From: Pseudoclavibacter helvolus
GTDB taxonomy: Bacteria; Actinomycetota; Actinomycetes; Actinomycetales; Microbacteriaceae
Assembly (NCBI RefSeq): GCF_014191305.1
Contig: NZ_JACHWJ010000001.1
Coordinates: forward strand, 62,001 to 126,000
Direction of reading: 5' to 3'
Length of the DNA stretch: 64,000 nt
This document shows positions 18,540-48,155 of the stretch, one piece after another. The first letter of the stretch is position 1; each line of letters starts with the position of its first letter. The notes beneath the pieces are model-generated. The model did not search any database. It was not told the DNA's origin and saw only the letters and a list, made by a program, of their open reading frames with translations. A program made the position numbers and the translations under genes.

Positions 18540-18544
18540 CCAGC

Positions 18545-21281: not shown

Positions 21282-21627
21282 GCCCTACAGGTGCGCTCCG
21301 TGCCTGTCGGCCCAGGTGGTCGTGCTTGCGTTCACGGCGACGGACGCTGATGAGCCTGGCGGCTGTGATGGGGCCGTTGACGAGGAACTTGAAGGCATTG
21401 ATGATGCACAGCAGCACGATCAGGTGCAGCCAGCCCGGGCCACCATCGGCGATGAGAGTGGTGCACCAGTAGGCGACGGCGAAGTAGCCGACTGAGAGCA
21501 GCATGGCCGGGATGCCCCAGCGCAGCCCTCGCCTGGTACGCAGGGCGTCGAGCAGAATGTTGGTGGGCATCCAGATCCGCATGAACGTGCGGATGCGGGT
21601 GCTGGTGTTCCAGATCAGTCGGAGCAT
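21211..21627 (-). CDS. Small membrane protein of the ICE
   Basis: 138 aa from the ATG at 21627, chosen because GGAGG lies seven bases upstream; the reading frame is open further but without a better start. Two hydrophobic helices: WGIPAMLLSVGYFAVAYWCT (about residues 37-56) and LHLIVLLCIINAFKFLVNGPI (about 67-87), then a basic tail. Similar small proteins occur in actinobacterial conjugative elements without a known role. The tail overlaps the next small gene. Confidence 0.65.
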   Translation of the reverse strand: MLRLIWNTSTRIRTFMRIWMPTNILLDALRTRRGLRWGIPAMLLSVGYFAVAYWCTTLIADGGPGWLHLIVLLCIINAFKFLVNGPITAARLISVRRRERKHDHLGRQARSAPVGHEALPDNEHGETYLGRTPGALHT

Positions 21628-21833
21628 GACGGAGTCCTCCCAAGCGGCGACGCCTTGATGGGATGGACTCACCTGGGCGGGTGCCCGGCTCGTCATGCCG
21701 TCTCCACGGAGGGTGACGGCCTAGCTGATGTGATGTCGCCTGTGCCCACGATTCTACCGGGTCAGCTGACGCTCGGGAAGGGCATGGGCGTGGGGTCGAG
21801 CTGTGTGGCTCGATCCCACTGCTGTTCGGAGGC

Positions 21834-22433
21834 TCAGGTGATCTCGCCGGTGTCAGGGTTGAGGCTGGCGTAGAAGTCGTGTTCGATCTGGCGGCGGCGT
21901 TCGACGTCGGCGATGACGAAGGCTACGAAGTCCTCGTCACGGTTCTCGATGGGGGTGTCTTCGATGGGTGCGGCTTCGTCCTCGCCGGGCCAGATCGTCT
22001 GGCGAGTGGGCCTGTCCCGGTCGAGTCGGGTGCCGCTGGCGGCGACCCAATCGCGCAGTCGCTGTCGGGTATCTGCGAAGTCGCGATGCCAGCCGATCGG
22101 GGCCGAACCGTTCTGCTGTGGATCGAAGGCGTTGAGCCAGTGGGTGTGGAGTGCGGAGAGTTCCCAGTGCAGCTCGGGGTGCCGATGCCACATCGGAGGA
22201 ATCACCGAGGTGGGCAGCCCGTAGGTGCTGCGCAGCCAGTTCACCCACTGGTTCAGCTCCAACCATGCATGCTCTGCCTCATCAGCGGTCAGGAGGTTCC
22301 AGTTGATCGGGCCGGGCGGTTCCTCCAGCACCGGTCCGAGGTCACCGTGCGGCTCAGGCGTCGATGCGGGGTCGAGATCGGGGTCTGGCCGGCCGTCGGG
22401 CTCTTCGGCTGATGCGCGAGTGTAATCGCTCAT
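21834..22433 (-). CDS. Conserved ICE protein, unknown function
   Basis: 199 aa from the ATG at 22433, thirteen bases after the SSB stop. A disordered Asp/Pro/Glu-rich N-terminus is followed by a Trp- and His-rich middle: AEHAWLELNQWVNWLRSTYGLP, PPMWHRHPELHWELSALHTHWLNAF and GWHRDFADTRQRLRDW. This Trp/His spacing resembles DUF4913-type proteins of actinobacterial plasmids and ICEs; the match is by eye only. It lies between ssb and the recombinase genes and is probably co-transcribed with them. Confidence 0.65.
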   Translation of the reverse strand: MSDYTRASAEEPDGRPDPDLDPASTPEPHGDLGPVLEEPPGPINWNLLTADEAEHAWLELNQWVNWLRSTYGLPTSVIPPMWHRHPELHWELSALHTHWLNAFDPQQNGSAPIGWHRDFADTRQRLRDWVAASGTRLDRDRPTRQTIWPGEDEAAPIEDTPIENRDEDFVAFVIADVERRRQIEHDFYASLNPDTGEIT

Positions 22434-22446
22434 GATCTGGTCCGGT

Positions 22447-22905
22447 TCAGCGGCCAAGCGTCGCAGGCTCGCGGGCCTGCGAGGACTGCTCGGGCCGTTC
22501 GAATGCCTGGCTGCGGTCAACGCCGGGCGCGCCTCGTCCCGGACCGGGGCGCGGTTCGCGTTCGATGCTCAGACGTGTGCTGACCGGGTTCGGGGCGAGG
22601 GTGTCGGCGCGGAACTCTTCGCGTTCGGCCCCGGTGGTGGGGTCTGTAAACTTCTCGAACCGTCCGGTGGCGATGAAGTCGTCGCCCTTCTTGAACAGCT
22701 CCATCGCTGCTTCAGCGGCCTTGTAGCGCACCGCGAGGTCGTGGAACGTCCGGTCGGTCTTGGTGAAGGTGCCATCATCTTCGCGTCGCCAGTGGTCGAC
22801 GCCCACACGCGCATAGAACCTCGGCGTGCCGGTCTTCTCGCTGTGGGTCAGTCGCGGGTCACCGGCGATGTGACCGACCATGATCGTGCCGTTCTTGATC
22901 CCCAT
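22447..22905 (-). CDS. ssb: Single-stranded DNA-binding protein (ICE-encoded)
   Basis: 152 aa. An OB-fold starts at the N-terminus: GTIMVGHIAGDPRLTHSEKTGTPRFYARVGVDHW...TFHDLAVRYKAAEAAMELFKKGDDFIATGRF. This fold is diverged from chromosomal SSB, with a disordered tail and no acidic tip. It probably coats the transferred single strand. AGGAGG seven bases upstream of the ATG at 22905 decides the start. About 50 bases further up lies a GCGCACCT motif. Confidence 0.85.
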   Translation of the reverse strand: MGIKNGTIMVGHIAGDPRLTHSEKTGTPRFYARVGVDHWRREDDGTFTKTDRTFHDLAVRYKAAEAAMELFKKGDDFIATGRFEKFTDPTTGAEREEFRADTLAPNPVSTRLSIEREPRPGPGRGAPGVDRSQAFERPEQSSQAREPATLGR

Positions 22906-22966
22906 CACGCATCCTCCTGTTCGCGTCGCACCGCCTCTCTTCGGCTGGTGTGACGGGAAGGTGCGC

Positions 22967-25900
22967 TCAGAGTCCACGTGGGGAAAGGTCACGCGATTCG
23001 CCACCAGCGGTGGCGAACGCTCCGGTGGTGCTCGGGGTCCGGGCCGGGTCGGCTCGCACACCGAGCGCCGCCCGGTGCGCTCGCACCGTCTCCACCGTCA
23101 GCCCGCTCGGAGAGCCCTGCGGTGCGGGTTCGGGCGGTGCAGCGTGGTCGATGTCTTCTTGCATCGCGGCCAGCCGGGTCTCGATTCGGGAGAGGTCGTT
23201 CTCTGCGTCTGCGAGGGCCCTTGTGTGGCGGAAGGGCTGTCCGATGCGTTGCTCGGCATCGTCGCGTTCTTGCTCAGCACTGGTCAGGTCGTCGCGGGCT
23301 TGCTCCAGGAGCGCGGGGATGCCGGAGGCGCGGTTCTCGATGCGCTGGATGAGCCCGACGCCGCCGTCGAGGAACGATTGGCGGGTCATAGTGAATCCAC
23401 TACGGGGCACTCCGTCGAGTCTGACGGTCACCATCGGTTCAGCTCCGAGCGCCGGGCTCGTTGAGACGGTGACGTCGAAGCCGCTGATCTTGCCGATGGC
23501 ACCGTAGTCACGGGTGGCGTAGCGGGGTGCCCATTTCAGGTCGGAGTCGTGCGCCCAGGACGCGAGCGCGTGGGCGGCGTCGGTACGGGAAGTGTAGGTG
23601 TGACCGCGTAGCTCGATGCGGAACTTCTCGCCCGAGGTATCGGTCAAGCGAGGCAGCACCGCTTCGAGGGCTTCGACATCGGAGGCAGCGCGACGTGCGT
23701 GATCGCTGGCTCGGTCGCGGGCATGGGCGAGCATCGACTCGTTGCGATGGTAGGCGCGCTCCAAGCGACGCAGCCGTTGCACTTCGGTGTGCACGGTGGA
23801 GTGCTCCAGCAGCAGCGGGTTCCCCGAGGAGATGGCTTTGGCTTCTGCGGCCGAGAGCGCGGAGGAGTCGATCTCCTCGATTTCGCGGGAGTCGAGGCTG
23901 CCACGCATGAGCTGCGCGATGAATGTGGCTTTGCGTTCGACGCCCTGCCACATGTATGAGTCGAACGATCGCTCGGTGACGAAGCGGACAATGCCGATCT
24001 CGGGATTCTGGTTGCCTTGTCGCAGGATGCGGCCCTCGCGCTGGGCGATGTCGGACGGGCGCCACGGGCAGTCCAGGTGATACAAGGCGACGGCACGGTT
24101 CTGGACGTTGGTGCCGACGCCCATCTTCTCGGTCGAGCCCATCAGCACCGCGACGTACCCGGCGCGCGCCGCAGCGAACAGCCGGGCTTTGTCCACGTCG
24201 GTCTTGGCCTCGTGCATGTACCGGATCGACTCAGGAGGCATCCCGCGTGCGATCAGTTGTGCCCGGAGTTCGTCGTAGGCGTTCCACCGGGTCGGGTTCG
24301 GGGTGCCGATGTCGGAGAACACCAGCTGCAAAGCTCCGCGCACGGGCGATTCCTGCCCGGTGATCGGGTCGAGGTAGGTGTTGTCTTTCGTCTGTTCCCA
24401 GACCCGATGGATGCTGTCGGCGGCCAGATCGACCTTGGTCGGCCCCGAGATGTCGCGCGGGGCGATCATGCGAATGTCGAGCGCGGCCTTGCGCCCATCG
24501 GTCGAGATGGTGAGCATGTTGTCCTCGCTCGGCGACACCGCTCGGGCCGCGACCTTCTCGGCGCGCGTGCCGAGGGTCTCGATGAACTGCTCCAGCTCGA
24601 CCGTGGGCTGAATCGCCACCGTTGCCGGTGCCCGGCGTCCGTCGTCGCGTTCAGCGATGTGGGGGATCGGCAGTTGCAGATCCTCGGCGGTCTTCACATC
24701 GGCGAAGATCGACCAGAGTTTCAGCATCTCGGGCACGTTCTGGAACTTCGAAAACCTTGTCTTCATGCGGAACGTGTTGTTGCCAGTGGGGGCCATCTCC
24801 ATCTGCGTGACCGTCTGCCCGAACGTCGCCGCCCACGCATCGAACGCCCCGATCCCGGCAGTCTCCAGCAAGTCCGGGCGCAAGTACTTCTGCATCACGA
24901 ACGCCTCCGTGACCGAGTTCGAGATCGGTGTCGCGGTCGCGCCGGTGACGACTCGCTCTCTGCCTTGGGAGCGAAGATATTCGAGCTTCATGTGCAGATC
25001 GCTGGCCCGGTTGGAACCCTCGATCGCGGCGTCAGCGATGTTGGAGTCGGTGGCGAGGTTCTTGTACATGTGCATCTCGTCGACGACCACGTAGTCGATG
25101 CCGGTGTCCTCGAAGCACACCCCGGCATCCCGACTGGTGTCGATGCGGGCTTTGACCTTGTTCTCCAGCTGGAGCAGCTTGCGCTGGATGCGCTTGACGC
25201 TCATCGCGTTCTCACCCGTGGCCGCAGCCAGCACTTCCCGCATCTCGTCAACCTGGGCTTGGATGTACGCCTGCTGGGTCTCTGCGCGCAGCGGGATCTT
25301 CTCGAACGCTCCCTGCGTCACCAGGACGCCATCCCACTCGTTCGCCGACGCCCGCGCGACGAACAGGCGACGCTTGTCGGCGGTGAGGTCTTTGCTGGAC
25401 GCGGCGAGAATCCGGGCCTGTGGATAGATCTGCAGCCACTCGCGGCTGAACTGTTCCAGCATGTGGTTCGGGATCACCAGGACCGGCTTGTCGATGAGAC
25501 CCATGCGGCGCATCTCCATCACGCCCATGATCATTTCCGCCGTCTTGCCCGCTCCGACCTCGTGGAACAGCCCGGCGGAGGGTTCGGCGATCATGCGCGC
25601 GACTGCTGAGCGCTGGTGCGGGCGCGGGGTGAAGTTCTCCGCCAGCCCCGGCAGGCTCAGGTACTCGCCCGCGTTCGTGTAATCCCTGAGCACAATGGAA
25701 TTGAAGCGCCGGTTGTACTCGTTCACGAGGGTGCGGGCGCGTTCGGGGTCTTCGAATACCCACTCGGAGAACCGCTCTTGCAGGGCGTCGGCTTTCTCCT
25801 GCGCGGCGGTGGTCTCCAGCGGGTTGAGCACGCGGCGCTTTTTGCCGTCGAGCTCTTCGATCTCGTCATAGACGAGTAGGGTGCGCTGTTCCATGATTGC

Positions 25901-28717: not shown

Positions 28718-28811
28718 GAGCTATCACCTCCACCACACTCGGGCCGTTGTCGTCGCTGCCCGTGGCTGAAACTGTCGGTCGTAGGTCAGCGGTCGGTGAG
28801 ATAGGTGCGGC

Positions 28812-30602
28812 TCAGGTGCCATTGCTGCCTCGTTCCAGCATCGCCTCGATCTCGGCGCGATCGGCCTTGAGCTGGTTACCGTCGGGTCGTTTCGGCCACG
28901 CGCGTAGGTCGGTGATGATCGGCGGGGCCGAGCGCAGCATGGTGACGGCGGTGCCGAACGGGAGGGTGCGGATGCGGTCGGGCGGCATGATCGGCACGCG
29001 CCGGATCGAGCGTTGATTCGAGCGGGTGCCGTGATCGCCGAGGGTCATGCTGTCGGTGAACTCGTCGCGTTCGCCGATCAGCGCGGAGAGGTCTTGCAGA
29101 TCGCGGCTGTTGGATGCGCCGCCGAGGATGATCTTGGTGATCGCCGCATCCCAGATGGCGTTGGCTTGGTTCTCGCTCCAGCGGTCACGTGCCTGCGCGA
29201 GGCTCTGGAGCACCGGCATTGTTGTGATGCCCGTGCCGCCGCCCTCGGCCATGAGAGTCGGCAGGCTCGGCAGCGGGCTGAGGTTGGCGATCTCATCCAA
29301 GGCCAGCAACAGGGGTGGGTCGAGGCGCGCGCCGGGTGAGCGTGCCGCCACCCGTCGGGCGGCTTCTACGAGGTCTTCGACGAACGCCGCCACGAGCGCG
29401 GCGCTGGCTCCGGCTCCTGCGCCGGTGGCGAGTAGGTAGAGGGTGCCGCGCGAGGAGATGAACTTCTCCGGGTCGAAGTCCTCGCCCGCGCCGGGCGTGA
29501 CCGCATCGAGTACGCGCGGGTCAGCTAGCGCGCTGAGTGACAGGGAGACGCCTTGCCAGATCGAATCGCGGGTGCGCGGGTCGGAATCGATCATCGCCTC
29601 CAAGGACTCGGCCCATCCGCCCGCCGCGAGCGGGCTATTTGTCAAGATCGCCACCGCGTCGGCGGCGGCGGTCGGGTCGAGCGTCCAGCGGAACAGTTCG
29701 GCGGGCGGCCTGTGGTCGATCGCGGCTGCGTGCAAGAGCGCTTGGAGGGCGGAGCGTGTCTTGCCCTCCCAGAACCCGCCGCCCTCGACGCCGCCGGAGC
29801 TCAGGCCGGTCGCTGAGGCGAGGCCGGTTGCGCGAATCATCGCCGTCAGAGGGTCTTCGCATCCCCTGATCGGTGACCAGCGCAGCCCGGCGGGGATGCC
29901 CTTGGCCAGATGCTGCGGGTCAAACACCGCTGTCGGGCCGATGCGCTGCCTCGCTCGCAGGCTCGCGGTGAGGTTGTCCGGGCGGGTCGAGGTCACCACG
30001 ACCGCGCCGGGCGCGTCCAAGATCGACGGGATGACGATGTGCAGGCCCTTGCCCGAGCGCGGTGGCCCGATCAGCAGAATCGAGTCCTCGACGCTGGCCC
30101 ACACGTCACGCCCGTGCGCGGTGCCGAGCCGGTAGCCCACATCGGCAGGTGCCGGCTGTGTCAGTGAGGGGCGCAGGTTCGCTGCCCTCCCCAGCAGTGC
30201 CTTGGTCGAGGCGGCCCCGGCGACGTCGTGTTTCGTGGCGATGCCGACGAGCCGGTGCGGGTCGGTCGCGGTCTTCCGCGACTGACGGCGCAGCAGCGTC
30301 CAGCCCCAGGTGATCGCCGCCGCCAGCAGCGCGAACAGGACGACCGCGACAATCCAGTAAGCCACGACGTTCAGGCCCTCGGCCTCGAGCGCGGTTGCCG
30401 GGTCGCCGGGGTTGAACAGCACGCCGACCCCAGCAGCGGGGCCAGCCGCCGGCTGAGCAGTCCCGGTGAGGAACGCGGCCACCGACCCGGCCCCGCGCAG
30501 CAGGAGCGCGAGCGCGAACACCCCGATCAGGCCGATCATGGCGGCGTTGGTCAGCTCGTCACCGAATGAGCCGGTCTGCCTGCCGGGTGCCGGAGCGCTC
30601 AT
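28812..30602 (-). CDS. traG: Type IV coupling protein (VirD4/TraG family)
   Basis: 596 aa from the ATG at 30602, which overlaps the stop of the upstream gene (ATGA). Two N-terminal transmembrane helices (AAMIGLIGVFALALLLRGAG and VVAYWIVAVVLFALLAAAITWGW) anchor it. Walker A is GPPRSGKGLHIVIPS (about residue 177), Walker B LLLALDEIANLSPL, and GGTGITTMPVLQSLAQARDRW is a conserved TraG block. It delivers the relaxase-DNA complex to the secretion channel. A cluster of two GCACCT motifs lies right after its stop. Confidence 0.95.
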   Translation of the reverse strand: MSAPAPGRQTGSFGDELTNAAMIGLIGVFALALLLRGAGSVAAFLTGTAQPAAGPAAGVGVLFNPGDPATALEAEGLNVVAYWIVAVVLFALLAAAITWGWTLLRRQSRKTATDPHRLVGIATKHDVAGAASTKALLGRAANLRPSLTQPAPADVGYRLGTAHGRDVWASVEDSILLIGPPRSGKGLHIVIPSILDAPGAVVVTSTRPDNLTASLRARQRIGPTAVFDPQHLAKGIPAGLRWSPIRGCEDPLTAMIRATGLASATGLSSGGVEGGGFWEGKTRSALQALLHAAAIDHRPPAELFRWTLDPTAAADAVAILTNSPLAAGGWAESLEAMIDSDPRTRDSIWQGVSLSLSALADPRVLDAVTPGAGEDFDPEKFISSRGTLYLLATGAGAGASAALVAAFVEDLVEAARRVAARSPGARLDPPLLLALDEIANLSPLPSLPTLMAEGGGTGITTMPVLQSLAQARDRWSENQANAIWDAAITKIILGGASNSRDLQDLSALIGERDEFTDSMTLGDHGTRSNQRSIRRVPIMPPDRIRTLPFGTAVTMLRSAPPIITDLRAWPKRPDGNQLKADRAEIEAMLERGSNGT

Positions 30603-31114
30603 GACAGGCTCCGCACGACGAGCGTCCCCGAGACTCGGCCCACCAGCACCACTTCGTCGCCACGGTTGAGGTGGTCGTGGTCCAGGTCGATGAGCGCGCG
30701 GGCGGTGCCGGTCGCAGCGGCGTCGGTGTGCCGGATGATGCGGCACACCGCAATGTCCTCGCCGGGTACAAAGCCCTCCCCGGTCACTTCCCGCAGCCGG
30801 GGCGCATCCGCCGGTTCGGGATCCGGCAGGTCAGGGGCTGGGGTGTTCTTGCGGGCGGTGGCGGTGATGATGTCGGTGAACACCGAACCATCGGCCTCGG
30901 TGACCTCGACCCGTGCCGGGATCATCCGCTCGGCGGTGACCTGATCGACAATCTGCGCGAACGAGCCGCGCCGCCACACTCCCTCGGCGACCGGCGGGGC
31001 GAGCGGTTCACCGTCGATGCTGGCGCTCATCGTGCCGTCGTCGTGCACGGCCAGGCGGATTACCGGCATCGACACCGGCGCGGGAACAGGAACGTGGGTA
31101 GGTGGCTTTCTCAT
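30599..31114 (-). CDS. ICE protein with a C-terminal beta-like module
   Basis: 171 aa from ATG 31114. The motif GCGCACCTG ends five bases before this ATG and no Shine-Dalgarno sequence is close by. An alternative ATG is at 31150. The C-terminal 50 residues (VPGEDIAVCRIIRHTDAAATGTARALIDLD...EVVLVGRVSGTLVVRS) match the next gene upstream (31158-31391) in pattern: PGE-x-I-x-V, R-x-T-x-A, G-x-A-x-x-L-I, G-x-x-SGTL. The two are diverged tandem copies of a module of unknown function. It overlaps traG by four bases. Confidence 0.7.
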   Translation of the reverse strand: MRKPPTHVPVPAPVSMPVIRLAVHDDGTMSASIDGEPLAPPVAEGVWRRGSFAQIVDQVTAERMIPARVEVTEADGSVFTDIITATARKNTPAPDLPDPEPADAPRLREVTGEGFVPGEDIAVCRIIRHTDAAATGTARALIDLDHDHLNRGDEVVLVGRVSGTLVVRSLS

Positions 31115-31157
31115 GCTGTCAGGTGCGCCCGCAGCCTCCCGGCCAGGCATTACCGCG

Positions 31158-31391
31158 TCAGCGGGGGTCTTCGTAGTAAAGCGTTCCGGAGTCGTACCCG
31201 AACAGCACGACGCCCTCACAGCCGCTGGGAAGTTCGGCAGTCTTGATGAGCACCTGAGCCTCGCCGTAACGGTTGGCCTCGGTGTTGCGGAGCAGGATGG
31301 CGACGCCGATAGTCTCGCCGGGCAGGAACGCGCGCCCCTCGATCTCGTAGGGTGTTGTGCGAGTGGCAGTAGATGATGTGTTGTGTTTCAT
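31158..31391 (-). CDS. Small ICE protein, single copy of the same module
   Basis: 77 aa from the ATG at 31391 (a GTG two codons upstream, 31397, is also possible). After a short Ser/Thr-rich N-terminus the whole protein is one module: LPGETIGVAILLRNTEANRYGEAQVLIKTA...GVVLFGYDSGTLYYED, paralogous to the end of the following gene. A GCACCTG motif ends six bases before the ATG. Function unknown. It lies between virB4 and the 171-aa protein, in the transfer block. Confidence 0.65.
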   Translation of the reverse strand: MKHNTSSTATRTTPYEIEGRAFLPGETIGVAILLRNTEANRYGEAQVLIKTAELPSGCEGVVLFGYDSGTLYYEDPR

Positions 31392-31425
31392 GCCCACCAG
31401 GTGCTTCGCCTGTTTCCCGTGTGGG

Positions 31426-32928
31426 TCACGGTGTGTTTCCGCCGGGAGTGAGGCCCGATGCCCTGGCGCTCGTGTCGAACAGTTCCAACTCGGCAGGGTG
31501 CAACTGCTGTTGCACGACGAAGCTGCGTTCCTTGATGCGCCACAAGCCCTGCCCGACCCCGAGCGAGGGCAACAGTTTGCGTTCGGTGGTCGTCAGCCCG
31601 AGCGCCTTCGCGGTGACGCCCAATTGGTCGGATTCTTGCCGGTAGATGATGCGCGTCTCGGCGTTCGCTAGCAGGCTGTTGGCGAGCGAGCGCATGGCGC
31701 TGCCGGAGTCGCCGACGTTCTCCAGATCGGTCAGCTTGTGGAAGATGAGGGCGTTGGCGATGCCGTAGTGCCTGGCGAGACGCCAGTGCGCGTCCATTCG
31801 TCTCAGCAACGATGGCTGCGACATCAGACGCCACGCCTCGTCGTAGATCACCCACCGTTGCCCGCCTGCCGGGTCGAGCAGCGCCGATTCCATCCACGCC
31901 GAGCAGCACGTCATGAGTGCGCTGATGAGCGTGCTGTTCTCCGTCACCCGCGACAGATCGAGGCTCATCATCGGCAGCGTCGGATCGAACTGCACCGTCG
32001 AGGGACCATCGAATAACCCCGCTAGGTCGCCTGCGACCAGCCGCCGCAAAGCATGGCCGACAATGCGGCCGTCCTCGGCCAGTCGTCCGTCATTGTCGTC
32101 GGTGGGGGCGAGGATGCGGTCGACGACCATCGGCAGAATCGGCACCGTATTCTCCCGCACGGTCGCGGTCAGCGCGGTGTCGATCGCGGTGTGTTCCAGC
32201 GGGGTCAGCGTGCGAGTGAGCACCACCTCGGCCAAAGCGCCGATGAGGTCGCGGCGACGAGCGGCCACGGTGCTCTCCCACTCGACATCAGTGAAGTGGG
32301 AGGGTCGATAGCCCTCGTCCAAGGGGTTGAGTCTGTTGGCCATGCCGTGCCCGAGCGCGATCGCGCGTCCGCCGACGGCCTCCGCGACAGCGGTATGTTC
32401 GCCTTTCGGATCGCCCGGCACGTACACGCGCCTGCCGAACGGCAGGCTGCGGGTGTACAAGGACTTGGCGAGTGAAGACTTGCCTGAGCCGACGATTCCG
32501 GCCAGGACGACGTTGGGTGCGGTGATGACGCCGTTGGCATACAGCACCCACGGGTCGTACACGAACGAGCCGCCGCTGTAGAGGTCTTGGCCAACGAATA
32601 CTCCGCTGGACCCGAGCCCGCCCTCTGCGACGAACGGGTACGCACCCGACAGGGTGGCGGAGGTGTCCTGATGCCGGGGCAGATGGAAACGGCCCGGTGT
32701 GCGCAGCATCGACGGGCCGGGTTCACCTGCTGCGGGCAGATACTGGCGTGCGGCGCGCTCGGCTTTCTCCGCTTCGGCACGGGCCTTGGCCTCGTCCATC
32801 CGCTGCTGCCGCTGCTCGTGGTGCAGCTGGTTCGCGGCTTGGCGTCGCTGTTTGCGGTAGCGTCGCTGTTCTTTCGCGGGGGCGACCAGCACCGAGGCAT
32901 GCAGCTTCTCACCATCGCTGCGGTTCAT
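31426..32928 (-). CDS. virB4: VirB4-family conjugation ATPase
   Basis: 500 aa. After a basic, Gln/Arg-rich N-terminal coiled coil (about residues 15-65) comes the ATPase: Walker A LAGIVGSGKSSLAKSLY (about 141), YVPGDPKGE, and Walker B RWVIYDEAWRLMSQ (about 359), followed by RHYGIANALIFHKLTDLENVGD. These are typical of VirB4/TraC-type motors that energise pilus assembly and DNA transfer. It is shorter than Gram-negative VirB4, as expected when the N-terminal half is split off into another protein; the SCO6880-family gene two places upstream may supply that part. Start overlaps the previous stop by four bases. Confidence 0.92.
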   Translation of the reverse strand: MNRSDGEKLHASVLVAPAKEQRRYRKQRRQAANQLHHEQRQQRMDEAKARAEAEKAERAARQYLPAAGEPGPSMLRTPGRFHLPRHQDTSATLSGAYPFVAEGGLGSSGVFVGQDLYSGGSFVYDPWVLYANGVITAPNVVLAGIVGSGKSSLAKSLYTRSLPFGRRVYVPGDPKGEHTAVAEAVGGRAIALGHGMANRLNPLDEGYRPSHFTDVEWESTVAARRRDLIGALAEVVLTRTLTPLEHTAIDTALTATVRENTVPILPMVVDRILAPTDDNDGRLAEDGRIVGHALRRLVAGDLAGLFDGPSTVQFDPTLPMMSLDLSRVTENSTLISALMTCCSAWMESALLDPAGGQRWVIYDEAWRLMSQPSLLRRMDAHWRLARHYGIANALIFHKLTDLENVGDSGSAMRSLANSLLANAETRIIYRQESDQLGVTAKALGLTTTERKLLPSLGVGQGLWRIKERSFVVQQQLHPAELELFDTSARASGLTPGGNTP

Positions 32929-33728: not shown

Positions 33729-33780
33729 GTCGGGCCTCCAGGTGGATCAGTGGTGATGGTTTCGAGGTGCGCTTGGCGGC

Positions 33781-35250
33781 TCAGACCTTGCGGCACAGCG
33801 GTAGCGCGGCGGCGGTGAAGGCCTGCGCCTGCTGGCCGACCAGCACGCGGGTCTCGCACGAGGCTTGAATGGCGGCTTGCTCGATCGCGGCGACTGCCGC
33901 TTCCAGTTCCTCGAGCGAGTCGGCAGACACGGAGATCAGCCCGGTGTAGCGGAGCACTCCGTGCCCGGCGGTCAGGTCAGCCTCCTGCTGGAGCACGTCG
34001 TGGTACTCGGCGGTCTGCGAGGCGTCTTCGATCTGCCCGATGCGGGCACGCTGGGCTGCGTCGGAGATGTACTCGGTCTTCTTGCGGCGAATGTCGCGGG
34101 CAGCCTGATCGGTGCGCAGCGGGGTGCAGATCAGCGAGAACGCCCGATGGATGCCGCTACTGAGCAGCACGGGAGAGAGGAACCCTGGATGCACCATCGA
34201 GCGCGGCCACTCCGAGATCCAGACGACGCAGTGATAGGCCGAGTCGCTGCGCAGATGCCCCCACGACTCGGTAACCGCGACCGGCCCGGCAGTGGCGAGG
34301 TCGTGCCCGAGGTCACCGTGGCGTTCCAGCGTGGCGGCGATAGCTGGGTCATACGCCGAGCGCAGGATGACTGCGATCTGTCCGGTGCTGAGCCAGCTCG
34401 TGCTCGTCAGGTCTGCCGAGCGCAGCGCCGCCGACAGCGTGCCCATCTCCTGTCGCAGCACGTTTGCTGCGCCCTTGACGCCGCCGCCTGCGGTGCGAAT
34501 CTGACGGGCGGCAGCACGCATATCCAGGCTCAGACTGAGGGTGGTTGCGTGGCGTTCCCCGGCAGGCCCGGCCCGTTCGATGAGTTCCTGATAGGTCGTC
34601 GCCGCCCACGAGCCGTCAGCGGTGCCGTGCGCGGCCCACCACTCGGCCAGACCCTGCCCGGAGTCCGGCAGTGTGCGTTCCAGCACTTGCAAGGTGGCGA
34701 TGCGCCCCGAACGGCACACGGTCGCCAGCACCCTGCCCCACGCGGTCACGCGTCGTTCTTGCTCACCGGGGTCGAGCAGCACGAACGCGGGATGGGTGAT
34801 CTCGGTGACGACAGTGAGAGTGCCGGCGGTGGGATCGTGCACCATCCCAGCCCCGGTCTCGGGATCGACGTACTCGCGCAACCGGGCCATGTCGCCTGGC
34901 AGCGCGAGTGTGCCCGCCGGGCGTGGGGTGACGATCCTGCGCCGGTAGGCCAGTTGCCCGCCGGTGGTGCGCCACAGCCACCAGCACGCCACCGGCAGCC
35001 ACTCGACCAGCGGGCGGCCCGCGACCGGAATCCAAGTGATCGCGGCAGCGATAATCCAAATCGGCGCGGTGATGAGGAACAGGACACCGCCGCCGCCGTA
35101 GAACGCGGCCACCAGGCTCGCCCCGCCGACACCGAGGGTGATCAGCTGAGACAGCGACAGGCCGAGCAAGATGCCGCGCCTGGTGAGGCGGGAGAATTTC
35201 ACGGGCACCAGCTCGCCGCCGCGTTCGTGGGCCATTTCAGTGTTCGGCAT
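33781..35250 (-). CDS. SCO6880-family type IV secretion protein
   Basis: 489 aa. Two or three transmembrane helices near the N-terminus (GILLGLSLSQLITLGVGGASLVAAFY, GGVLFLITAPIWIIAAAITW) are followed by a large cytosolic part with WGRVLATVCRSGRIATLQVLERTLPD and RHATTLSLSLDMRAAARQIR. The family takes its name from Streptomyces SCO6880 and sits beside VirB4 in actinobacterial conjugation loci, where it probably combines a VirB3/PrgI-like membrane part with the N-terminal part of VirB4. AAGGAA nine bases before ATG supports the start. Confidence 0.85.
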   Translation of the reverse strand: MPNTEMAHERGGELVPVKFSRLTRRGILLGLSLSQLITLGVGGASLVAAFYGGGGVLFLITAPIWIIAAAITWIPVAGRPLVEWLPVACWWLWRTTGGQLAYRRRIVTPRPAGTLALPGDMARLREYVDPETGAGMVHDPTAGTLTVVTEITHPAFVLLDPGEQERRVTAWGRVLATVCRSGRIATLQVLERTLPDSGQGLAEWWAAHGTADGSWAATTYQELIERAGPAGERHATTLSLSLDMRAAARQIRTAGGGVKGAANVLRQEMGTLSAALRSADLTSTSWLSTGQIAVILRSAYDPAIAATLERHGDLGHDLATAGPVAVTESWGHLRSDSAYHCVVWISEWPRSMVHPGFLSPVLLSSGIHRAFSLICTPLRTDQAARDIRRKKTEYISDAAQRARIGQIEDASQTAEYHDVLQQEADLTAGHGVLRYTGLISVSADSLEELEAAVAAIEQAAIQASCETRVLVGQQAQAFTAAALPLCRKV

Positions 35251-35256
35251 CGCAGG

Positions 35257-36618: not shown

Positions 36619-36658
36619 CACGAGCCTCCTTGTAGTTCGGAGTTGTTGATGGGTGGGT

Positions 36659-36928
36659 TCAGACGGCTTGGCCGACGCCCCAGAAGAAGTTGATGAGCGT
36701 GACGGACGCGCCACAGACGACGGCTGCACCGCATGAGATCAGAACGCCGATCTTGCCGCGACCGGCCAGATGCGGGTTGGATGAGTTGGAGCCGTAGGCC
36801 CAGATGATCGCGGAGACGATCAGCGCCAGAACGCTGAGGATCAGGCCCACGGTCATGACTGCGCCGACGATGATGCGCAGCTGTTCGATTCCCGGCAAGC
36901 CGCTGGAGTTGGGGTCGATGTCGATCAC
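36659..36928 (-). CDS. Small two-helix membrane protein, VirB2/pilin-like (copy 2)
   Basis: 89 aa from a GTG at 36928 with AAGGAG seven bases upstream; an ATG at 36976 is in frame but lacks a site. Two hydrophobic helices (IVGAVMTVGLILSVLALIVSAIIWAYG and GVLISCGAAVVCGASVTLINFFWGVG) separated by a short Gly/Arg/Lys loop. It is a paralogue of the 88-aa gene directly upstream (same IVSAIIWA and GRxxIGVLxS positions). Two-helix proteins of this size next to VirB6 are VirB2/TrbC-like pilins or DUF6112-type proteins; the pilin role is inferred. Confidence 0.8.
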   Translation of the reverse strand: MIDIDPNSSGLPGIEQLRIIVGAVMTVGLILSVLALIVSAIIWAYGSNSSNPHLAGRGKIGVLISCGAAVVCGASVTLINFFWGVGQAV

Positions 36929-36995
36929 GGCAGTTCTCCTTCTTGAAGCGTTGGGTGGTTCTGCCGTCAGGTGCACCCCGCCGCCACACGTACGA

Positions 36996-37023
36996 GAGCG
37001 CCCGCCCCAGAGGGCGGGCGCTC
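36996..37023 (-). terminator. Strong hairpin between the two pilin-like genes
   Basis: A perfect 11-bp stem (GAGCGCCCGCC with GGCGGGCGCTC) and a 6-base loop stand 15 bases after the upstream gene's stop. No T-run follows in the direction of transcription, so it is more likely an attenuator or mRNA-stabilising element that sets different levels of the two proteins than a full terminator. Confidence 0.7.
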
Positions 37024-37037
37024 AGAAGCCGTAGGGG

Positions 37038-37304: not shown

Positions 37305-37314
37305 GACGCACCCG

Positions 37315-38949: not shown

Positions 38950-38965
38950 TTTCATGGCCTCCGTG

Positions 38966-39691
38966 TCAGCGCAGCGGCTGGTCGAGCATCGACAGGCGCA
39001 GCAGATAGCAGGACGGCACCTCACCCGCATCGGCTGCGCCGGTCTCGCTCTGGCTGCCCGTCGGCGGGGTGTCGGGTGGGCAGGCGAGGAAGATCGTGAA
39101 CACCACCTGGTGCTCAGAAGTCACCGGTTCGTCGTTCCAGATTCCTTCGCGGTGCCGGGTGCCCTCGATCGTGATGGCGGTCGCCCCGACCGGGAGCTGG
39201 CCGGGCCGGGCTTGCTCGACTGCCCCGGCCCACTGCTCAGGTACATAGGCGTCGGTGATGGCCAGGTGCTGGCTCGTGCTGTACTGGCGCAGATCGACCC
39301 AGGCGTCACGGTCCGGCAGGTAGGAGGTGACGTCGGAGGCCAGGCCCGCTTGCTCATTCCCGGTCGGGTCGCCCACGTCGAGCAGCACGGCGGTGTGATC
39401 CAGCGGTAGGAACCCGCTGGTGGCATCCCAGGTGAATAGCGCATGCGCGGCCGAGCGTGCGAACTCTTCGGGGTCGGTCGACGGGGCGATGTGGGGCAGG
39501 CGCGGAGTCGGCTGATCGGGAGTGGAGCGAGTCGGAACCGGTGGCCTATCAGGTGACGGACCGGTGTCGTTCGGGCCGGTCACCAGCCCGTAGACGCCGA
39601 TCGCAGCCAGGACGAGGAACGCGACCCCGGCGCAGAAGAGGGAGATCAATCGGCGGCGGGTGCGGGCGGGATCATCGGGAGTCGTCTTCAT
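38966..39691 (-). CDS. Single-pass ICE protein, VirB8/TcpC-like candidate
   Basis: 241 aa. A short basic N-terminus, one transmembrane helix (LISLFCAGVAFLVLAAIGVYGLVTG, about residues 15-39), a Pro/Thr-rich linker, then an extracytoplasmic alpha+beta domain starting DPEEFARSAAHALFTWDATSGFLPLDH. This topology, size and place just upstream of the wall hydrolase suit a VirB8/TcpC-type assembly factor (NTF2-like fold), but no sequence motif proves it. A GCGCACCTG motif ends six bases before the ATG. Confidence 0.7.
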   Translation of the reverse strand: MKTTPDDPARTRRRLISLFCAGVAFLVLAAIGVYGLVTGPNDTGPSPDRPPVPTRSTPDQPTPRLPHIAPSTDPEEFARSAAHALFTWDATSGFLPLDHTAVLLDVGDPTGNEQAGLASDVTSYLPDRDAWVDLRQYSTSQHLAITDAYVPEQWAGAVEQARPGQLPVGATAITIEGTRHREGIWNDEPVTSEHQVVFTIFLACPPDTPPTGSQSETGAADAGEVPSCYLLRLSMLDQPLR

Positions 39692-39727
39692 AACCCCCAG
39701 GTGCGCCGCCCACGCACCCGATGAGGG

Positions 39728-40708
39728 TCAGAGCGCTCGTAGGTGCCTACGCGGGTTGTCCAGCGACTGCCGGGCGGCGCGTAGCTCGTCGGCGAACGTA
39801 CTGGTGCCATCAGCGGTCGCCAGGAACGAGCCGATCTGCTCGTCGGTGAGATCGCTGGCCAGCATCTCGGCGTCGTAGTGCATCCACCAGTCGGCAAGCT
39901 CCGTCCAGGTGGCGACGAACGCGCGCACCGGCCACCGCGCAGGCTCGGTCTCACTCGCGGAGATGACCGGCACGGGCTTGGCTTGCGCCGCCTGAGCGCG
40001 GGCGACGGCCTCACGCGCCGCGGCCTCCAGATCGGCGTCCTCGCTGGTCACTTCGGCGACAGCGGCACGAATGCGCTCGAAGCCGGGATGCACCGGAGCA
40101 CCGGCGTTGATGCGTTCGACCTCCGCTGCCGCCTCGGCGCGCACTGTCGCGGGCAGATTGGGGTCGTCGGTGACTTGCCGCAGGTAGTCGATCTTGTCGA
40201 GCGTCTTGTACGACGCACCGCCGGGGATCATTGCGGCGGCTTGCTCGCTGGCTCGGCCCGCAGCTTCGGACGGTGCGGGAAACTTTCCCACGCCGTCGTT
40301 TCCGGGCTGGTTCTCCGCACTGAACCTTGTTGCTGCCTGCCTGCGCGCGGCGTCCTCGGCCATGAGGGTCTTCAGTTCGCTGTACAGCGCAGACTTCTCG
40401 CTCGGGGTGAGGTCTTTGTGCAGAAGGTTGTCGTCTTGCTCGGCCAGCAGGTGTCCCAGCCTGCCCGAGACGCCCGAGCGCACCCACACGCTCACCGTGC
40501 GCCAGCCGAGCAGCTTGATCGCGGCCAGCCGCCGAGCGCCGCACACCAGCACCCCGTCGATGGTGACCGTCAACGGTTGCAGGAGTCCGTCGCGGGCGAT
40601 GGACTCGGCCAGCTCGGTCAGGTCGCCCAGATCGGTGCGGTGCCGGTTGCCGACGATGATCGAGGCGACGGTGCGGTCGAGTTCGATGTGCCCGGTGTGC
40701 CTGCTCAT
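39728..40708 (-). CDS. ParB-like nuclease-domain protein
   Basis: 326 aa. The N-terminal ParB/Sulfiredoxin-like fold: LDRTVASIIVGNRHRTDLGDLTELAESIARDGLLQPLTVTIDGVLVCGARRLAAIKLLGW, with the GxRR box as CGARR. HKDLTPSEKSALYSELKTLM is the usual following helix. No HTH of the Spo0J kind is clear. No ParA gene lies in the ICE, so it probably regulates transfer or stabilises the circular form rather than driving standard partition. ATG overlaps the previous stop. Confidence 0.88.
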   Translation of the reverse strand: MSRHTGHIELDRTVASIIVGNRHRTDLGDLTELAESIARDGLLQPLTVTIDGVLVCGARRLAAIKLLGWRTVSVWVRSGVSGRLGHLLAEQDDNLLHKDLTPSEKSALYSELKTLMAEDAARRQAATRFSAENQPGNDGVGKFPAPSEAAGRASEQAAAMIPGGASYKTLDKIDYLRQVTDDPNLPATVRAEAAAEVERINAGAPVHPGFERIRAAVAEVTSEDADLEAAAREAVARAQAAQAKPVPVISASETEPARWPVRAFVATWTELADWWMHYDAEMLASDLTDEQIGSFLATADGTSTFADELRAARQSLDNPRRHLRAL

Positions 40709-41553
40709 GACCGACCCCCATGTTTGGGGGCCGCGAGGGAGATCATCAGTACGAGATCGTCGTCGCGCAGCAGCGCGCGCAGACTCTCGCCAATCAGCAA
40801 CCTGAGCAGGATGCCGCGCCCAGCAGTGGTCGCGGCATAGGCCGGGCTGGGATGCCCGAGCAGCGCCTTCAACAGCGCTGTCCAGGCGGTGCCGTTCACG
40901 TCCAGCAGGGCGCGAGCGTGCTTGTCGCGGCGCAGCGCTTCATAGGCGCTCTGGCGGCTACCCGCACCGGCCAGAGCCTGGCAGATGTGCTCGACCCCGG
41001 CGCGGGCGACGTGTGGGGGCCAGCCCAGCAGCGTGAACAGCGCGATCGCGTCCTCCACCGCCGAGCCTGCCGAGCAGCTCGTCGTCGTACTGGCCGGTTC
41101 GTCGGCGCCGGTCGGTTCGGGATCGGTGACGTGGAATGCGGAGTGATAGTCCGTAAGCGGGTTCTCCCGATCCGACAGCCTCTCCGCGTCATGGAACGCA
41201 GAGATGTGCGGGCGTCGGGCCTGATGCACCGAACACAACAGACCCTGCCCGCGTTCCTCAGCGATGCAGGTGATGCGCACCGCGTGGGTCACCACGCCCC
41301 ACGGGTCGTTCGCGGTACGCGCGGCCTTGGTGCGCATCACATCGAACGCGGCTGATGCCGCCTCCCAGGGGTCGAGGCCGTGCTTGCGAGCCAGCGCTCC
41401 GTACTTATCGGCGGCGTAGACCATCAGGTCAGCGGCGACCGGATCGGATTGCCACGCGCCGGGGCCGCTCTCGTGCAGCCGGTTCAGCAGGGCACGCAAG
41501 CCCTCGCTGCGAGTGAAGTCTTCCGGTTCACGGAAGGTCGTGCGGGTTGTCAT
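40705..41553 (-). CDS. Conserved ICE protein, unknown function
   Basis: 282 aa from ATG 41553 (AGGAGG seven bases upstream). Residues 40-115 (AADLMVYAADKYGALARKHGLDPWEAASAAFDVMRTKAARTANDPWGVVTHAVRIT) faintly resemble region 2 of sigma factors. The rest is helical and Ala/Leu-rich. The ribosome-binding site can pair with an upstream GCACCT (6-bp stem, 10-base loop), which could limit translation. It lies between the ParB-like gene and a short ICE protein in the leftward block. No family can be named. Confidence 0.65.
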   Translation of the reverse strand: MTTRTTFREPEDFTRSEGLRALLNRLHESGPGAWQSDPVAADLMVYAADKYGALARKHGLDPWEAASAAFDVMRTKAARTANDPWGVVTHAVRITCIAEERGQGLLCSVHQARRPHISAFHDAERLSDRENPLTDYHSAFHVTDPEPTGADEPASTTTSCSAGSAVEDAIALFTLLGWPPHVARAGVEHICQALAGAGSRQSAYEALRRDKHARALLDVNGTAWTALLKALLGHPSPAYAATTAGRGILLRLLIGESLRALLRDDDLVLMISLAAPKHGGRS

Positions 41554-41644
41554 GATGGCACCTCCTGGCGGCAAGGTGCACGCAGTGGGCCTCTTCGTAG
41601 GGGGTGGTCGGGCGTTCGTTGTCGAGTCATCGCTGATCACCGCT

Positions 41645-43757: not shown

Positions 43758-43861
43758 CGTCTGACCTCCTTCCGCCCGAGGCCACTCATCAACGAGTAGC
43801 CGTACGACCGTGAGGTACGTCGGGAGGGTCAGGAAGAGGAGACGGACAAGGAGACGAGACA

Positions 43862-44898: not shown

Positions 44899-44975
44899 CA
44901 AGACGCCTCATCAAAGCCGACAATGGCTCAATCGACCGCTCAGGACGAGCGAACGAAGAGACCGTAGGGCGTTGA

Positions 44976-45413: not shown

Positions 45414-45440
45414 CCTATGCTCCTCCTCGGTTGCTATACT

Positions 45441-45473
45441 GTTCCCGAATCAGGAATACATCTACTCGGGAAC
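45441..45473. promoter_or_regulatory. Candidate MarR operator overlapping a promoter
   Basis: GTTCCCGA (45441-45448) and TCGGGAAC (45466-45473) form a perfect 8-bp inverted repeat with a 17-base spacer, between the divergent marR and oxidoreductase genes. TATACT at 45435-45440, a good -10 box for the rightward operon, abuts the left arm. Confidence 0.7.
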
Positions 45474-45514
45474 ATCCCGTAAGTGTACTAGATGGACGAG
45501 GGAGCGGGACAGCG

Positions 45515-46892: not shown

Positions 46893-46927
46893 TGATCCGG
46901 CTTCTGTCAGCTCGAAAGGCCCCACCC

Positions 46928-47914
46928 ATGAGTTCCTCTGATGCTCGGCGCAAGGCGCGCACACCGTTCACCTGGCTGGAGAAGCGCGTCCGTTTCAACC
47001 GGCCTGCGCTGCGCTGGGCGGCGCTCGTCGCAGTGGCAGCGAGCGTCCTCATCATCGTGACCGGTGGGATCGTCCGCGTTACTGGGTCCGGGCTCGGCTG
47101 TCCGACTTGGCCGAGTTGCACGGGCGAGGGGTTCGCGCCGACCGCGGAGATGGGCATCCACGGTGTCATCGAGTTCGGCAACCGACTCCTGACCGGCTTG
47201 CTGTGCGTTGTTGTCGGCTGGCTCATCGTCGTCGCTCGCCTTCAGCGACAGCCGGTGCCGCAGGTGACCCGGTGGGCATGGGCACAATTCTGGATCATCC
47301 TCCTCAACGCCCTCGTCGGCGGTATCACCGTATTGGCCCGATTGAGCCCCTACATCGTCGCGGCGCACTTCCTCGCCGCGACCCTGTTGCTGGCCGCTGC
47401 CACCGTCGCATGGCACAAGGCCGGCCAGCTCGATGCCCCTCCGACTACGGACAACCCCGACGCGAGCGTGCACCGCATCGGGGCCGTGTTGCTGGTGTCG
47501 ACGGCAGTCCTGTTGATCGCTGGGACGCTGGTCACCGGCACAGGGCCGCACGCTGGCGACTCGTCCGACGTCGCGCGGATGCCGTTTGACTGGACCGCAG
47601 TTACCTTCCTCCACGGGATCATTGCCGTCCTCGTGGGCGGTACCGCCGTGACGCTATGGATCAAGGTCTGCACGGCCGCGAACCCCACGATGCTGCGTCG
47701 GATCACGCTGTTCCTTGCGGTGTTTCTCGCGCAAGGGCTTGTTGGGATCGTCCAGGTTGTCACAGCCCTGCCCGAGGTGGCCGTCGTCCTGCATCTGCTC
47801 GGCTCTGCGTTCGTATGGATCGGCGCGATCCGCGTCTACTTCGACACCCGATCCAGTCATCTCTCGGGTTCCGAGCAAGCGATGTGTCATCCGGTCAATG
47901 GAGCGGTGGGCTGA
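46928..47914 (+). CDS. ctaA: Heme A synthase (CtaA/COX15 family)
   Basis: 328 aa, eight transmembrane helices in two four-helix halves. The heme-ligand histidines are present: IHGVIEFGNRLL, YIVAAHFLAA, FLHGIIAVLVGG and VVLHLLGSAFVW. The Cys pair GLGCPTWPSC between helices 1 and 2 is conserved in the actinobacterial/Bacillus group. It converts heme O to heme A for aa3-type oxidases. A second, ICE-borne copy is unusual; no oxidase or ctaB gene accompanies it, so it must feed the host's enzyme. GAAAGG about eight bases before the ATG is the likely ribosome-binding site. Confidence 0.92.
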   Translation: MSSSDARRKARTPFTWLEKRVRFNRPALRWAALVAVAASVLIIVTGGIVRVTGSGLGCPTWPSCTGEGFAPTAEMGIHGVIEFGNRLLTGLLCVVVGWLIVVARLQRQPVPQVTRWAWAQFWIILLNALVGGITVLARLSPYIVAAHFLAATLLLAAATVAWHKAGQLDAPPTTDNPDASVHRIGAVLLVSTAVLLIAGTLVTGTGPHAGDSSDVARMPFDWTAVTFLHGIIAVLVGGTAVTLWIKVCTAANPTMLRRITLFLAVFLAQGLVGIVQVVTALPEVAVVLHLLGSAFVWIGAIRVYFDTRSSHLSGSEQAMCHPVNGAVG

Positions 47915-47977
47915 ACGCTGCCGAGAGAAAGGTGTCACTCACCCCGACACCGGCATGCTGCGTAGCGTCAGATGGCA

Positions 47978-48018
47978 CCCGGCTAGCAGCCGGGCCGAGC
48001 ACTGCATTACCGGCTGCT
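47978..48018. other. Candidate oriT: overlapping inverted repeats before the relaxase gene
   Basis: CCCGGCT (47978-47984) pairs with AGCCGGG (47988-47994), and AGCAGCCGG (47985-47993) pairs with CCGGCTGCT (48010-48018). The two hairpins exclude each other. The 241-base gap 47915-48155 is the only sizeable gene-free stretch beside the MobF relaxase gene, where oriT often lies. The nick site cannot be identified from the sequence alone. Confidence 0.4.
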
Positions 48019-48100
48019 CTGGCTTGTCTTGTCGAGGCCGTCCCAGAGCCTGCCACTTACCCACACGGTTGGCACTAAGAGTGCGAGCCGCGGGCTGCGC

Positions 48101-48155
48101 GCGCACCTGACCTCCGAGATCGCCCCTCCCGTGACGGTCTCGGGGAGGGGCCGTC
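48101..48155 (+). promoter_or_regulatory. Structured leader hiding the relaxase ribosome-binding site
   Basis: GCGCACCTG (48101-48109) is followed by CCTCCGAGA (48111-48119), which pairs with TCTCGGGGAGG (48138-48148) containing the ribosome-binding site. Alternative stems CCCCTCCC/GGGAGGGG (48123-48130 with 48143-48150) and GACGG/CCGTC (48133-48137 with 48151-48155) also cover it. Translation of the relaxase is probably kept low unless a factor opens the leader. Confidence 0.6.

Follow-up and report, generated by a model that had tools for sequence, protein, structure and literature searches.

A conserved, oriented promoter-like motif in an actinobacterial integrative and conjugative element and its candidate sigma-like reader

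The stretch of DNA analysed here (the window, 64,000 nucleotides of Pseudoclavibacter helvolus) covers positions 62001-126000 of contig C1 in a 3.84-Mb genome and carries an integrative and conjugative element (ICE), in which a short motif, GYGCACCTK, recurs ahead of genes. An earlier note, made from the letters alone, had proposed that this motif is either a shared translational switch or a site at which an ICE regulator acts to coordinate transfer. Our analysis indicated that the motif is real, oriented and conserved. Its layout points to a class of promoters, and the candidate reader is g282, a 282-residue protein of the element, which we consider to act as a sigma-like factor with a probability of about 0.7.

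Organization of the element and its candidate promoter sites

Among the gene products of the ICE, profile searches recognized a relaxase of the TrwC type, a TraG/VirD4 coupling protein, a DUF2637-helix-turn-helix (HTH) protein and a ParB-N protein. Genes were called with our own script, trained on ten window genes, and the gap lengths given below depend on these calls. The genes on which the analysis turns are the following.

40705..41553, minus strand: g282, 282 amino acids, proposed element-encoded sigma-like factor; residues ~12-104 have a predicted sigma-region-2-like fold
39728..40708, minus strand: parB, ParB-N protein (PF02195, E 5e-6), whose start overlaps the end of g282; possible partner
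38966..39691, minus strand: g241, 241 amino acids, putatively leaderless target gene
36659..36928, minus strand: g89b (DUF6112; PF19607, E 4.8e-22), target gene
33781..35250, minus strand: g489, conserved, operon-internal control gene
31426..32928, minus strand: 500-amino-acid operon-internal control gene, presumptively labelled 'virB4' by us
28812..30602, minus strand: traG/VirD4 coupling protein gene (PF12696, PF02534), operon-internal control
22447..22905, minus strand: ssb, target gene; orthologues by tblastn, label taken from the earlier note
48156..51722, plus strand: relaxase-helicase gene (PF08751, E 3.3e-83; PF13604), target gene

The candidate promoter sites were scored with a 27-position matrix, which was made without the window and seven near relatives and kept the other 118 related loci.

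41566..41592, minus strand: before g282-parB, score 15.5; proposed autoactivation, putative transcription start (+1) at A 41566, the first A of AGGAGG
39691..39717, minus strand: before g241, score 17.3; putatively leaderless, with +1 at the A of ATG 39691
36961..36987, minus strand: before g89b-trbL-g489, score 17.3
33757..33783, minus strand: before g267-virB4, score 12.2
31391..31417, minus strand: before g77 (few orthologues), score 12.5; putatively leaderless (ATG 31391)
31113..31139, minus strand: before g171-traG, score 15.4; putatively leaderless (ATG 31114, offset 12)
22951..22977, minus strand: before ssb-g199, score 17.8
21281..21307, minus strand: before g80 and the serine integrase gene, score 13.6; putatively leaderless (ATG 21281)
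48090..48116, plus strand, opposite to the others: before the TrwC-type relaxase gene, score 14.9
43805..43831, minus strand: weak site before a 322-amino-acid gene ('pol', a label we assume), spdB and g153, score 11.1; not in the earlier list

The g80 site lies within an overlapping frame (21211-21696), and no g80 orthologue was found.

Enrichment, orientation and conservation of the motif

The window contains 13 copies of GYGCACCTK, with 3.8 expected and 10 in the largest of 100 shuffles, and 78 copies of the looser GCACCT, with 38 expected from shuffles. Within the ICE part (19400-52000), six of the nine GYGCACCTK copies are intergenic, all of them on the coding strand and 5-90 nucleotides upstream of a gene. 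These gaps amount to 1,969 base pairs (bp), and the remaining three copies are spread over 30,632 bp of coding sequence, giving a 31-fold higher density in gaps; the gaps of the host flanks of the window contain none in 3,431 bp. The comparison of gap with coding frequency and of the two orientations, which the earlier note had proposed as a check, was thus far from equal. All the looser GCACCT copies that it listed are present at the positions it gave. Nine of its eleven copies score 12.2-17.8 as sites, but both copies at 28803-28819, ahead of the 1916-codon gene, fall below 7.5; with 0/5 orthologue upstreams carrying the motif, sites before this gene are not supported. The rule that the motif always takes the coding orientation holds for the listed copies but not for the window as a whole, where GCGCACCTG also occurs in the tRNA-Ala gene (19428, plus strand) and, at 44629 (plus strand), antisense to frame 43990-44901, which we assume by eye only to be AraC-like.

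Relatives were gathered from loci around the coupling protein and g241 and from 80 loci found via g282, giving 126 partly overlapping loci including the window. Coupling-protein relatives were detected in 25/60 genomes and g241 relatives in at least 53/398 family genomes (E<=0.001); since the genome searches score few candidates per genome, such tallies are lower bounds. Near-identical upstreams were removed for the orthologue counts, the logo and the offsets, and retained for the gap-density and matrix-specificity counts. In the orthologue test, G[CT]ACCT[GTC] was sought within -75 to +15 of unique upstreams, and alignments beginning after residue 20 were dropped. The coding-strand motif was found upstream of g282 (72/89), g241 (72/91), g89b (37/87), g267 (42/68), g171 (12/34) and ssb (15/18), and at lower frequency upstream of pol (13/47, 1.5 expected), g153 (6/23), g89a (16/88) and int (1/5); g1916 and g199 had none (0/5 each). 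Operon-internal genes rarely carried it (spdB 2/90, parB 5/94, lys 0/82, trbL 0/85, g489 2/80, virB4 5/80 and traG 2/31), and shuffles led to an expectation of 0.1-3.6 across the genes. On the reverse strand, the motif was counted 0-7 times for every gene except g282 (75/89), because the Shine-Dalgarno sequence of g282 reads AGGAGGTGC. Being present at head genes and scarce at internal ones, the motif is thus a mark of where transcription units begin (g282-parB, g241, g89b-trbL, g267-virB4, g171-traG and ssb). The conservation in related ICEs that the earlier note had called for was thus confirmed for operon-head genes. In the 125 related loci, the density ratio of gaps to coding sequence is 13, and of 387 GYGYACCTB gap copies 333 are promoter-oriented, 12 opposed and 42 neither.

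Register of the motif relative to the putative transcription start

Alignment of 316 sites on CACCT revealed a fuller element, GG-N8-GYGCACCTG-N3-G-N-Y-R. In alignment positions, the logo shows G at -12 (74%), -11 (68%) and -2 (91%), C/T at -1, G at 10 (81%), C/T at 12, and A (65%) or G (25%) at 13. The sites were picked by N[CT]ACCT, a choice that fixes positions 1-5 beforehand and, in part, 0 and 6; the independent signals are those at -12, -11, -2, -1, 10, 12 and 13. Position 13 is mostly a purine in each of six gene sets despite their differing start distances.

Analysis of the start codons revealed two arrangements. At g241, an in-frame ATG follows 76 of 87 sites, at offset 12 (7 sites) or 13 (69 sites) and never with a Shine-Dalgarno sequence, and the other 11 have a start at offset 41-54, every one with a Shine-Dalgarno sequence. 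At g171, ATG lies at offset 12-13 in 12 of 18 sites, and three of the other six have a Shine-Dalgarno sequence. Leadered starts with a Shine-Dalgarno-like stretch were found at g282 (79/79), g267 (43/43), ssb (15/15) and g89b (41/42), counts that are partly set by construction, as the choice of start favoured offset 12-14 and otherwise a lax Shine-Dalgarno pattern. Overall, the start codon lies 8-83 nucleotides from the motif at a gene-specific offset, with no fixed short distance of the kind expected of a Shine-Dalgarno-type element or the start-associated sequence of cluster K phages.

As the purine is fixed in place while the distance to the start codon varies, it is most likely +1: position 13 (or 12) would be the first transcribed base, giving a leaderless mRNA where an ATG stands there and a leadered one otherwise. 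CACCTG would then occupy -12 to -7, where a -10 element is expected, and GG -25/-24. The earlier note had listed four copies only 5-6 bases from a start; this spacing is better explained by leaderless mRNAs that start at or beside the A of ATG. For the putatively leaderless genes, the interval between the motif and the ATG is too short to accommodate another promoter. A sigma-70 consensus scan of 31000-43900 identified one promoter-like site, inside g267, and none at the motif-bearing gene heads. Together, the register and spacing make it very probable that the motif represents a promoter class rather than a translational switch.

Restriction of the sites to the element family

The specificity of the matrix was assessed by counting promoter-oriented gap matches with a score >=12. 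There were eight in 1,969 bp of gap in the window ICE, 429 in 242,488 bp in the 125 related loci, most of which fed the matrix, and 10 in 13,125 bp in five distant g282 elements outside the matrix. None occurred in 55,413 bp of gap in 22 loci that surround other coupling-protein genes and lack g282 (L039 and L040 of these adjoin, L040 having no coupling-protein match), and none in 58,385 bp of gap in 20 chromosome stretches of three host genomes (400 kb). In the same order, gap matches that are not promoter-oriented numbered 0, 59, 5, 5 and 2, and coding matches 3, 298, 8, 34 and 34. Within these controls, the sites are thus restricted to g282-type elements, and their absence from g282-free loci and host DNA suggests that the reader is most likely encoded by the element and not by the host. 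At the motif level, the regulon is confined to the element and includes the gene of g282 itself, as for SigN of plasmid pBS32 (see below). Of the two proposals in the earlier note, the target of an ICE regulator coordinating transfer is the one favoured by the operon-head position of the sites and by these controls.

The motif bases agree slightly more within an element than between elements: 0/500 permutations reach the observed agreement at position 0 and 2/500 at positions -1 and 1. A first impression by eye of strong covariation was not sustained, the measured agreement being modest, and it lends weak support to co-evolution with an element-encoded reader.

g282 as the candidate reader

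Searches with tblastn detected 423 stretches related to g282 in GTDB genomes; the best 80 of the 423, which were kept, include Gordonia, Brevibacterium, Kocuria, Microbacterium, Nesterenkonia, Dietzia, Nocardia and Microlunatus. Across the phylum, g282 was found in at least 6/396 genomes, its own included. Viral contigs and phage records yielded no g282, and plasmid records yielded one (64.6% over 84%). Both g282 and parB occur in 5/5 distant motif-bearing elements and in 0/22 negative loci.

Profile searches with g282 gave no Pfam match at E<=10 and no NCBIfam or PHROGs match at E<=1, and a sequence comparison with solved structures gave a single match (E 1.3), unrelated by name. A likeness to sigma region 2 had been remarked by eye before any structure of g282 was predicted. 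The alignments used for structure prediction contained 58 sequences each (57 of the 80 loci, and the window). The N-terminal domain modelled alone with AlphaFold reached a predicted local distance difference test (pLDDT) score of 87.1 and a predicted template modelling (pTM) score of 0.79. Comparison of this domain with the PDB (186 chains aligned) revealed that the best 17 of the 32 top rows are all sigma-factor entries, with Z from 7.4 to 4.2. The best match has a root mean square deviation (RMSD) of 2.9 over 85 aligned residues; unrelated rows begin at Z 3.6. The matched entries include SigH, sigma-S, sigma-E region 2, gp55, SigI1, sigma-32, SigA, WhiG and others; chain identities are partly drawn from entry titles, and we take the chains RPSH and RPSB to be sigma-H and sigma-B. 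With the full g282 model, the first 15 rows are sigma-factor entries (best Z 8.7, RMSD 2.1, 82 residues), followed by a first unrelated row at Z 5.5. Among the viral models of BFVD, a phage RNA polymerase sigma factor ranks first (E 0.33). The N-terminal domain of g282 is thus predicted to fold like sigma-factor region 2, which makes it the candidate reader named above.

A number of observations weigh against this assignment. Every Foldseek E-value for g282 exceeds 0.3, none being significant, and the Z scores of the N-terminal domain are all below 8. In the full AlphaFold model only residues ~8-100 are well predicted; after residue 101 the pLDDT is mostly <60, which leaves the C-terminal half, and with it any region 4 (-35 recognition), without a confident model. 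PF04542 (Sigma70_r2) matches 11 places in the own genome, g282 not among them, and profile-profile scores of 9.1 and 9.4 lie below those of column shuffles (up to 14.3 and 13.9). On account of the failed sequence-profile tests and the Foldseek values, we do not file g282 as a member of the sigma-70 family and call it sigma-like only in its proposed working. ParB and the small g89a co-occur with g282 equally strictly, the g89a matches falling mostly on g89b places. The motif is absent from many orthologue upstreams of g89b, g267 and g171, and the base agreement within elements is reached by 297/500 permutations at position 6. Moreover, g282 was not detected in five genomes with close coupling proteins (G008, G027, G028, G036 and G052). 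Sites with a score >=11 persist in four of them (G008, G028, G036 and G052), 1-4 in each, ahead of an unnamed gene or of ssb, g267 or g171; the two short contigs of G027 contain none. The g282-side half of the element is likewise missing from these loci, partly at contig ends, and they are read as truncated or incompletely assembled elements, although the same pattern is expected if another protein reads the motif.

In G008 (loci L021 and L022, joined, 16310-20311), where the g282-side half is missing, a transposase-like pair, named by eye, adjoins g489, and two promoter sites remain; the loss of this half is ascribed to an IS-type insertion.

Alternative explanations

Another element protein, foremost the ParB-domain protein beside g282, might read the sites as an activator or essential partner at a promoter or operator. 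It shares the strict co-occurrence of g282 with the motif, a protein with region 2 only offers no obvious means of reading GG at -25/-24, and four genomes without detectable g282 keep sites, though those loci lack parB too. An activator would still leave host sigma-A in need of its own -10 where CACCTG sits, with no room elsewhere in the leaderless genes; ParB sites are usually palindromes, and the g282 motif is not. We consider this reading clearly unlikely. The HTH protein spdB was also tried as the reader and is disfavoured, as three of the five distant loci with the motif (G663, G673 and G782) gave no tblastn match to spdB, which contig ends may hide in G673 and G782. A promoter class borrowed from a host sigma factor would suit the 11 Sigma70_r2 places of the own genome and the many alternative sigma factors of actinobacteria, but it is very unlikely given that neither the 400 kb of three host genomes nor the 22 g282-free loci contain a promoter-oriented gap match.

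Asymmetry, single orientation, location in short gaps and element specificity would equally be expected of stoperator-like operators, at which a repressor blocks transcription as in cluster A mycobacteriophages. The confinement of the sites to operon heads (0-5 of 31-94 upstreams for seven internal genes) speaks against such operators, and a road-block does not predict the fixed-distance pyrimidine-purine step or the bimodal leaderless and leadered spacing, which makes them quite unlikely. In the shared translational switch of the earlier note, CACCT would govern initiation as an anti-Shine-Dalgarno-like element; it is complementary to AGGTG, and GCACCT faces the conserved AGGAGGTGC in g282 orthologues, where the reverse motif is frequent. 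This proposal did not survive: the distance from motif to purine is fixed while that to the start is not, leadered genes have an ordinary Shine-Dalgarno-like stretch, and in five of the six gene sets there is hardly any partner (reverse motif in 1-2 of 18-91 upstreams). The hairpin at 41553, described as clean, is no more stable than folds of shuffled sequence (z -0.28), and the putative transcript would begin downstream of its 5' arm. A translational role appears highly improbable. Chance or composition, suggested by the window-wide excess of GCACCT over shuffles, is practically negligible beside the gap to coding ratios of 31 and 13 and the recurrence of the operon-head pattern in distant elements outside the matrix.

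Other features of the window

A 12-bp GC-rich hairpin lies between g89a and the g89b promoter site and is a possible boundary between transcription units.

36996..37023, minus strand: hairpin, free energy -29.3, z -4.43; no T-run, not among the results of the terminator scan

In g282 orthologues, the promoter GCACCT (41545-41585, minus strand, in the window) faces the Shine-Dalgarno sequence AGGAGGTGC. It is a speculative thought that transcripts reading through from upstream could hide this Shine-Dalgarno sequence and those from g282's own promoter could not; the fold is no better than shuffles. The tRNA-Ala(GGC) gene (19407-19480, plus strand) beside the serine integrase gene contains GCGCACCTGCATGGCATG, with a matrix score of 16.1, and the integrase frame (19379-21085, minus strand) runs antisense across it. 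No function was found for this match, which is probably due to chance and possibly linked to the attachment site. A second match (score 17.1, 26040-26066, plus strand) lies antisense inside the 1916-codon gene and may be an antisense promoter or chance. This gene (22967-28717, minus strand) has weak methyltransferase and SNF2/helicase signals and was matched in 6/126 loci, many loci ending before its place; it is possibly an optional module. The region 43990-47914, which separates the transfer operons from the relaxase gene, contains cargo-like genes, including AraC- and MarR-like regulators named by eye, and G+C is 61-64% in 44001-48000 as against 65-69% in the ICE core.

Comparison with known systems

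Among the structures matched by the N-terminal domain of g282 is the late sigma factor gp55 (PDB 7d7c; Z 6.3, RMSD 3.3, 87 residues), which we take to be the bacteriophage T4 protein. Both are highly divergent and element-encoded. The -10 recognized by gp55 is TATA-like, and its action involves a co-activator and the clamp; the g282 sites differ in being GC-rich, with GG at -25/-24. The consensus of sigma-54 (RpoN) promoters has GG at -24 and GC at -12, and ACCT is not part of it. Its GG-N10-GC spacing and its distance to +1, about 12 nucleotides from GC, match GG at -25/-24 and GC at -13/-12 here, the GC being partly fixed by the picking of sites. The ICE motif differs by its invariant ACCT, and the N-terminal domain of g282 matches sigma-70-type region 2 entries. 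As a reader, sigma-54 was rejected: its DNA-binding domain (PF04552) was found 0 times in the own genome and in 1/40 genomes searched in all. That single match (G051:C213:44890-45297) lies in an actinobacterial assembly of ~270 contigs and is possibly a contamination.

Statements on the literature refer to the passages available from each source. The sigma gene rpoN2, linked to the symbiosis island ICEMlSymR7A, is apparently ICE-borne (PMC3538637); it differs from g282 in being an ordinary RpoN copy, discussed there for symbiotic nitrogen fixation genes and not for the transfer module. The nearest precedent among the literature found is SigN (ZpdN) of plasmid pBS32 of Bacillus subtilis, a sigma factor homologue active in vitro, whose regulon comprises pBS32 genes and its own promoter and is linked to cell death after DNA damage (PMC6751061). 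SigN and g282 are alike in being encoded on a mobile element with an element regulon that includes their own gene, for g282 at the motif level. They differ in that SigN is a sigma homologue with in vitro activity and a non-conjugation regulon, whereas g282, a sigma-like factor by prediction, has no detectable sequence homology. The stoperators of cluster A mycobacteriophages are short asymmetric sites, many per genome, bound by the repressor (PMC9283540, PMC6550527). They resemble the ICE motif in asymmetry and in repetition over one mobile genome, and differ in that the stoperator repressor stops elongation, with no tie to +1. SetCD is an activator complex; it is an element-encoded controller of transfer, as is proposed for g282, and it differs in being an activator rather than a sigma-like reader. 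In SXT/R391 ICEs it is described as the master activator of the transfer regulon (PMC4344509).

BreLI, an ICE of Brevibacterium aurantiacum, includes genes for ParB, TrbL and SSB (PMC6579920). The locus of this species in our set (L117) carries g282, and BreLI probably belongs to the same ICE family as the window ICE. The term 'sigma factor' does not occur in the main text of the BreLI paper (PMC6579920). The available passages of that paper and of a review of Gram-positive conjugation control give no account of how transfer is switched on in actinobacterial ICEs of the type IV secretion system type, and the 'sigma factor' passage of the review concerns phrI and sigma-H. No sigma-driven conjugation regulon was found in the titles and abstract openings of the open-licence papers that the searches listed, and a search of open-licence papers yielded none on split sigma factors.

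Proposed mechanism and implications

We propose that CACCTG (-12 to -7) would be the core of a promoter class private to this actinobacterial ICE family, together with GG at about -25/-24, G-Y-G at -15 to -13, G at -3 or -4, a pyrimidine at -1 and a purine at +1. Transfer operons would be headed by such promoters, which in the window would additionally precede ssb and the relaxase gene. Where an ATG coincides with +1, the transcript would lack a leader; elsewhere it would have a leader of ~10-70 nucleotides with a Shine-Dalgarno sequence. RNA polymerase would be brought to these sites by an element-made sigma-like factor, most likely g282. The promoter on its own gene would let g282, once made, amplify itself through positive feedback and turn on the whole transfer module together, sparing host genes. 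A further extension, possible but doubtful, is a two-part sigma factor of a new lineage that sequence comparison does not recognize, in which g282, region-2-like, would read CACCTG and the overlapping ParB-domain protein GG at -25/-24. The sigma-54-like geometry would then have arisen by convergence in hosts without RpoN, and transfer would run as a programme that amplifies itself, stays within the element and uses several leaderless mRNAs.

If the reading of g282 as a sigma-like factor is true, it would add to the known sigma factors of mobile elements an unrecognized family with an unusual promoter and a conjugation regulon, overlooked by Pfam, NCBIfam and PHROGs, and would provide a test case for the divergence of region 2. 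For the biology of these elements, it would mean that transfer has a one-gene master switch whose regulated operons can be predicted from sequence, and would offer a means to induce or silence such elements across many genera.

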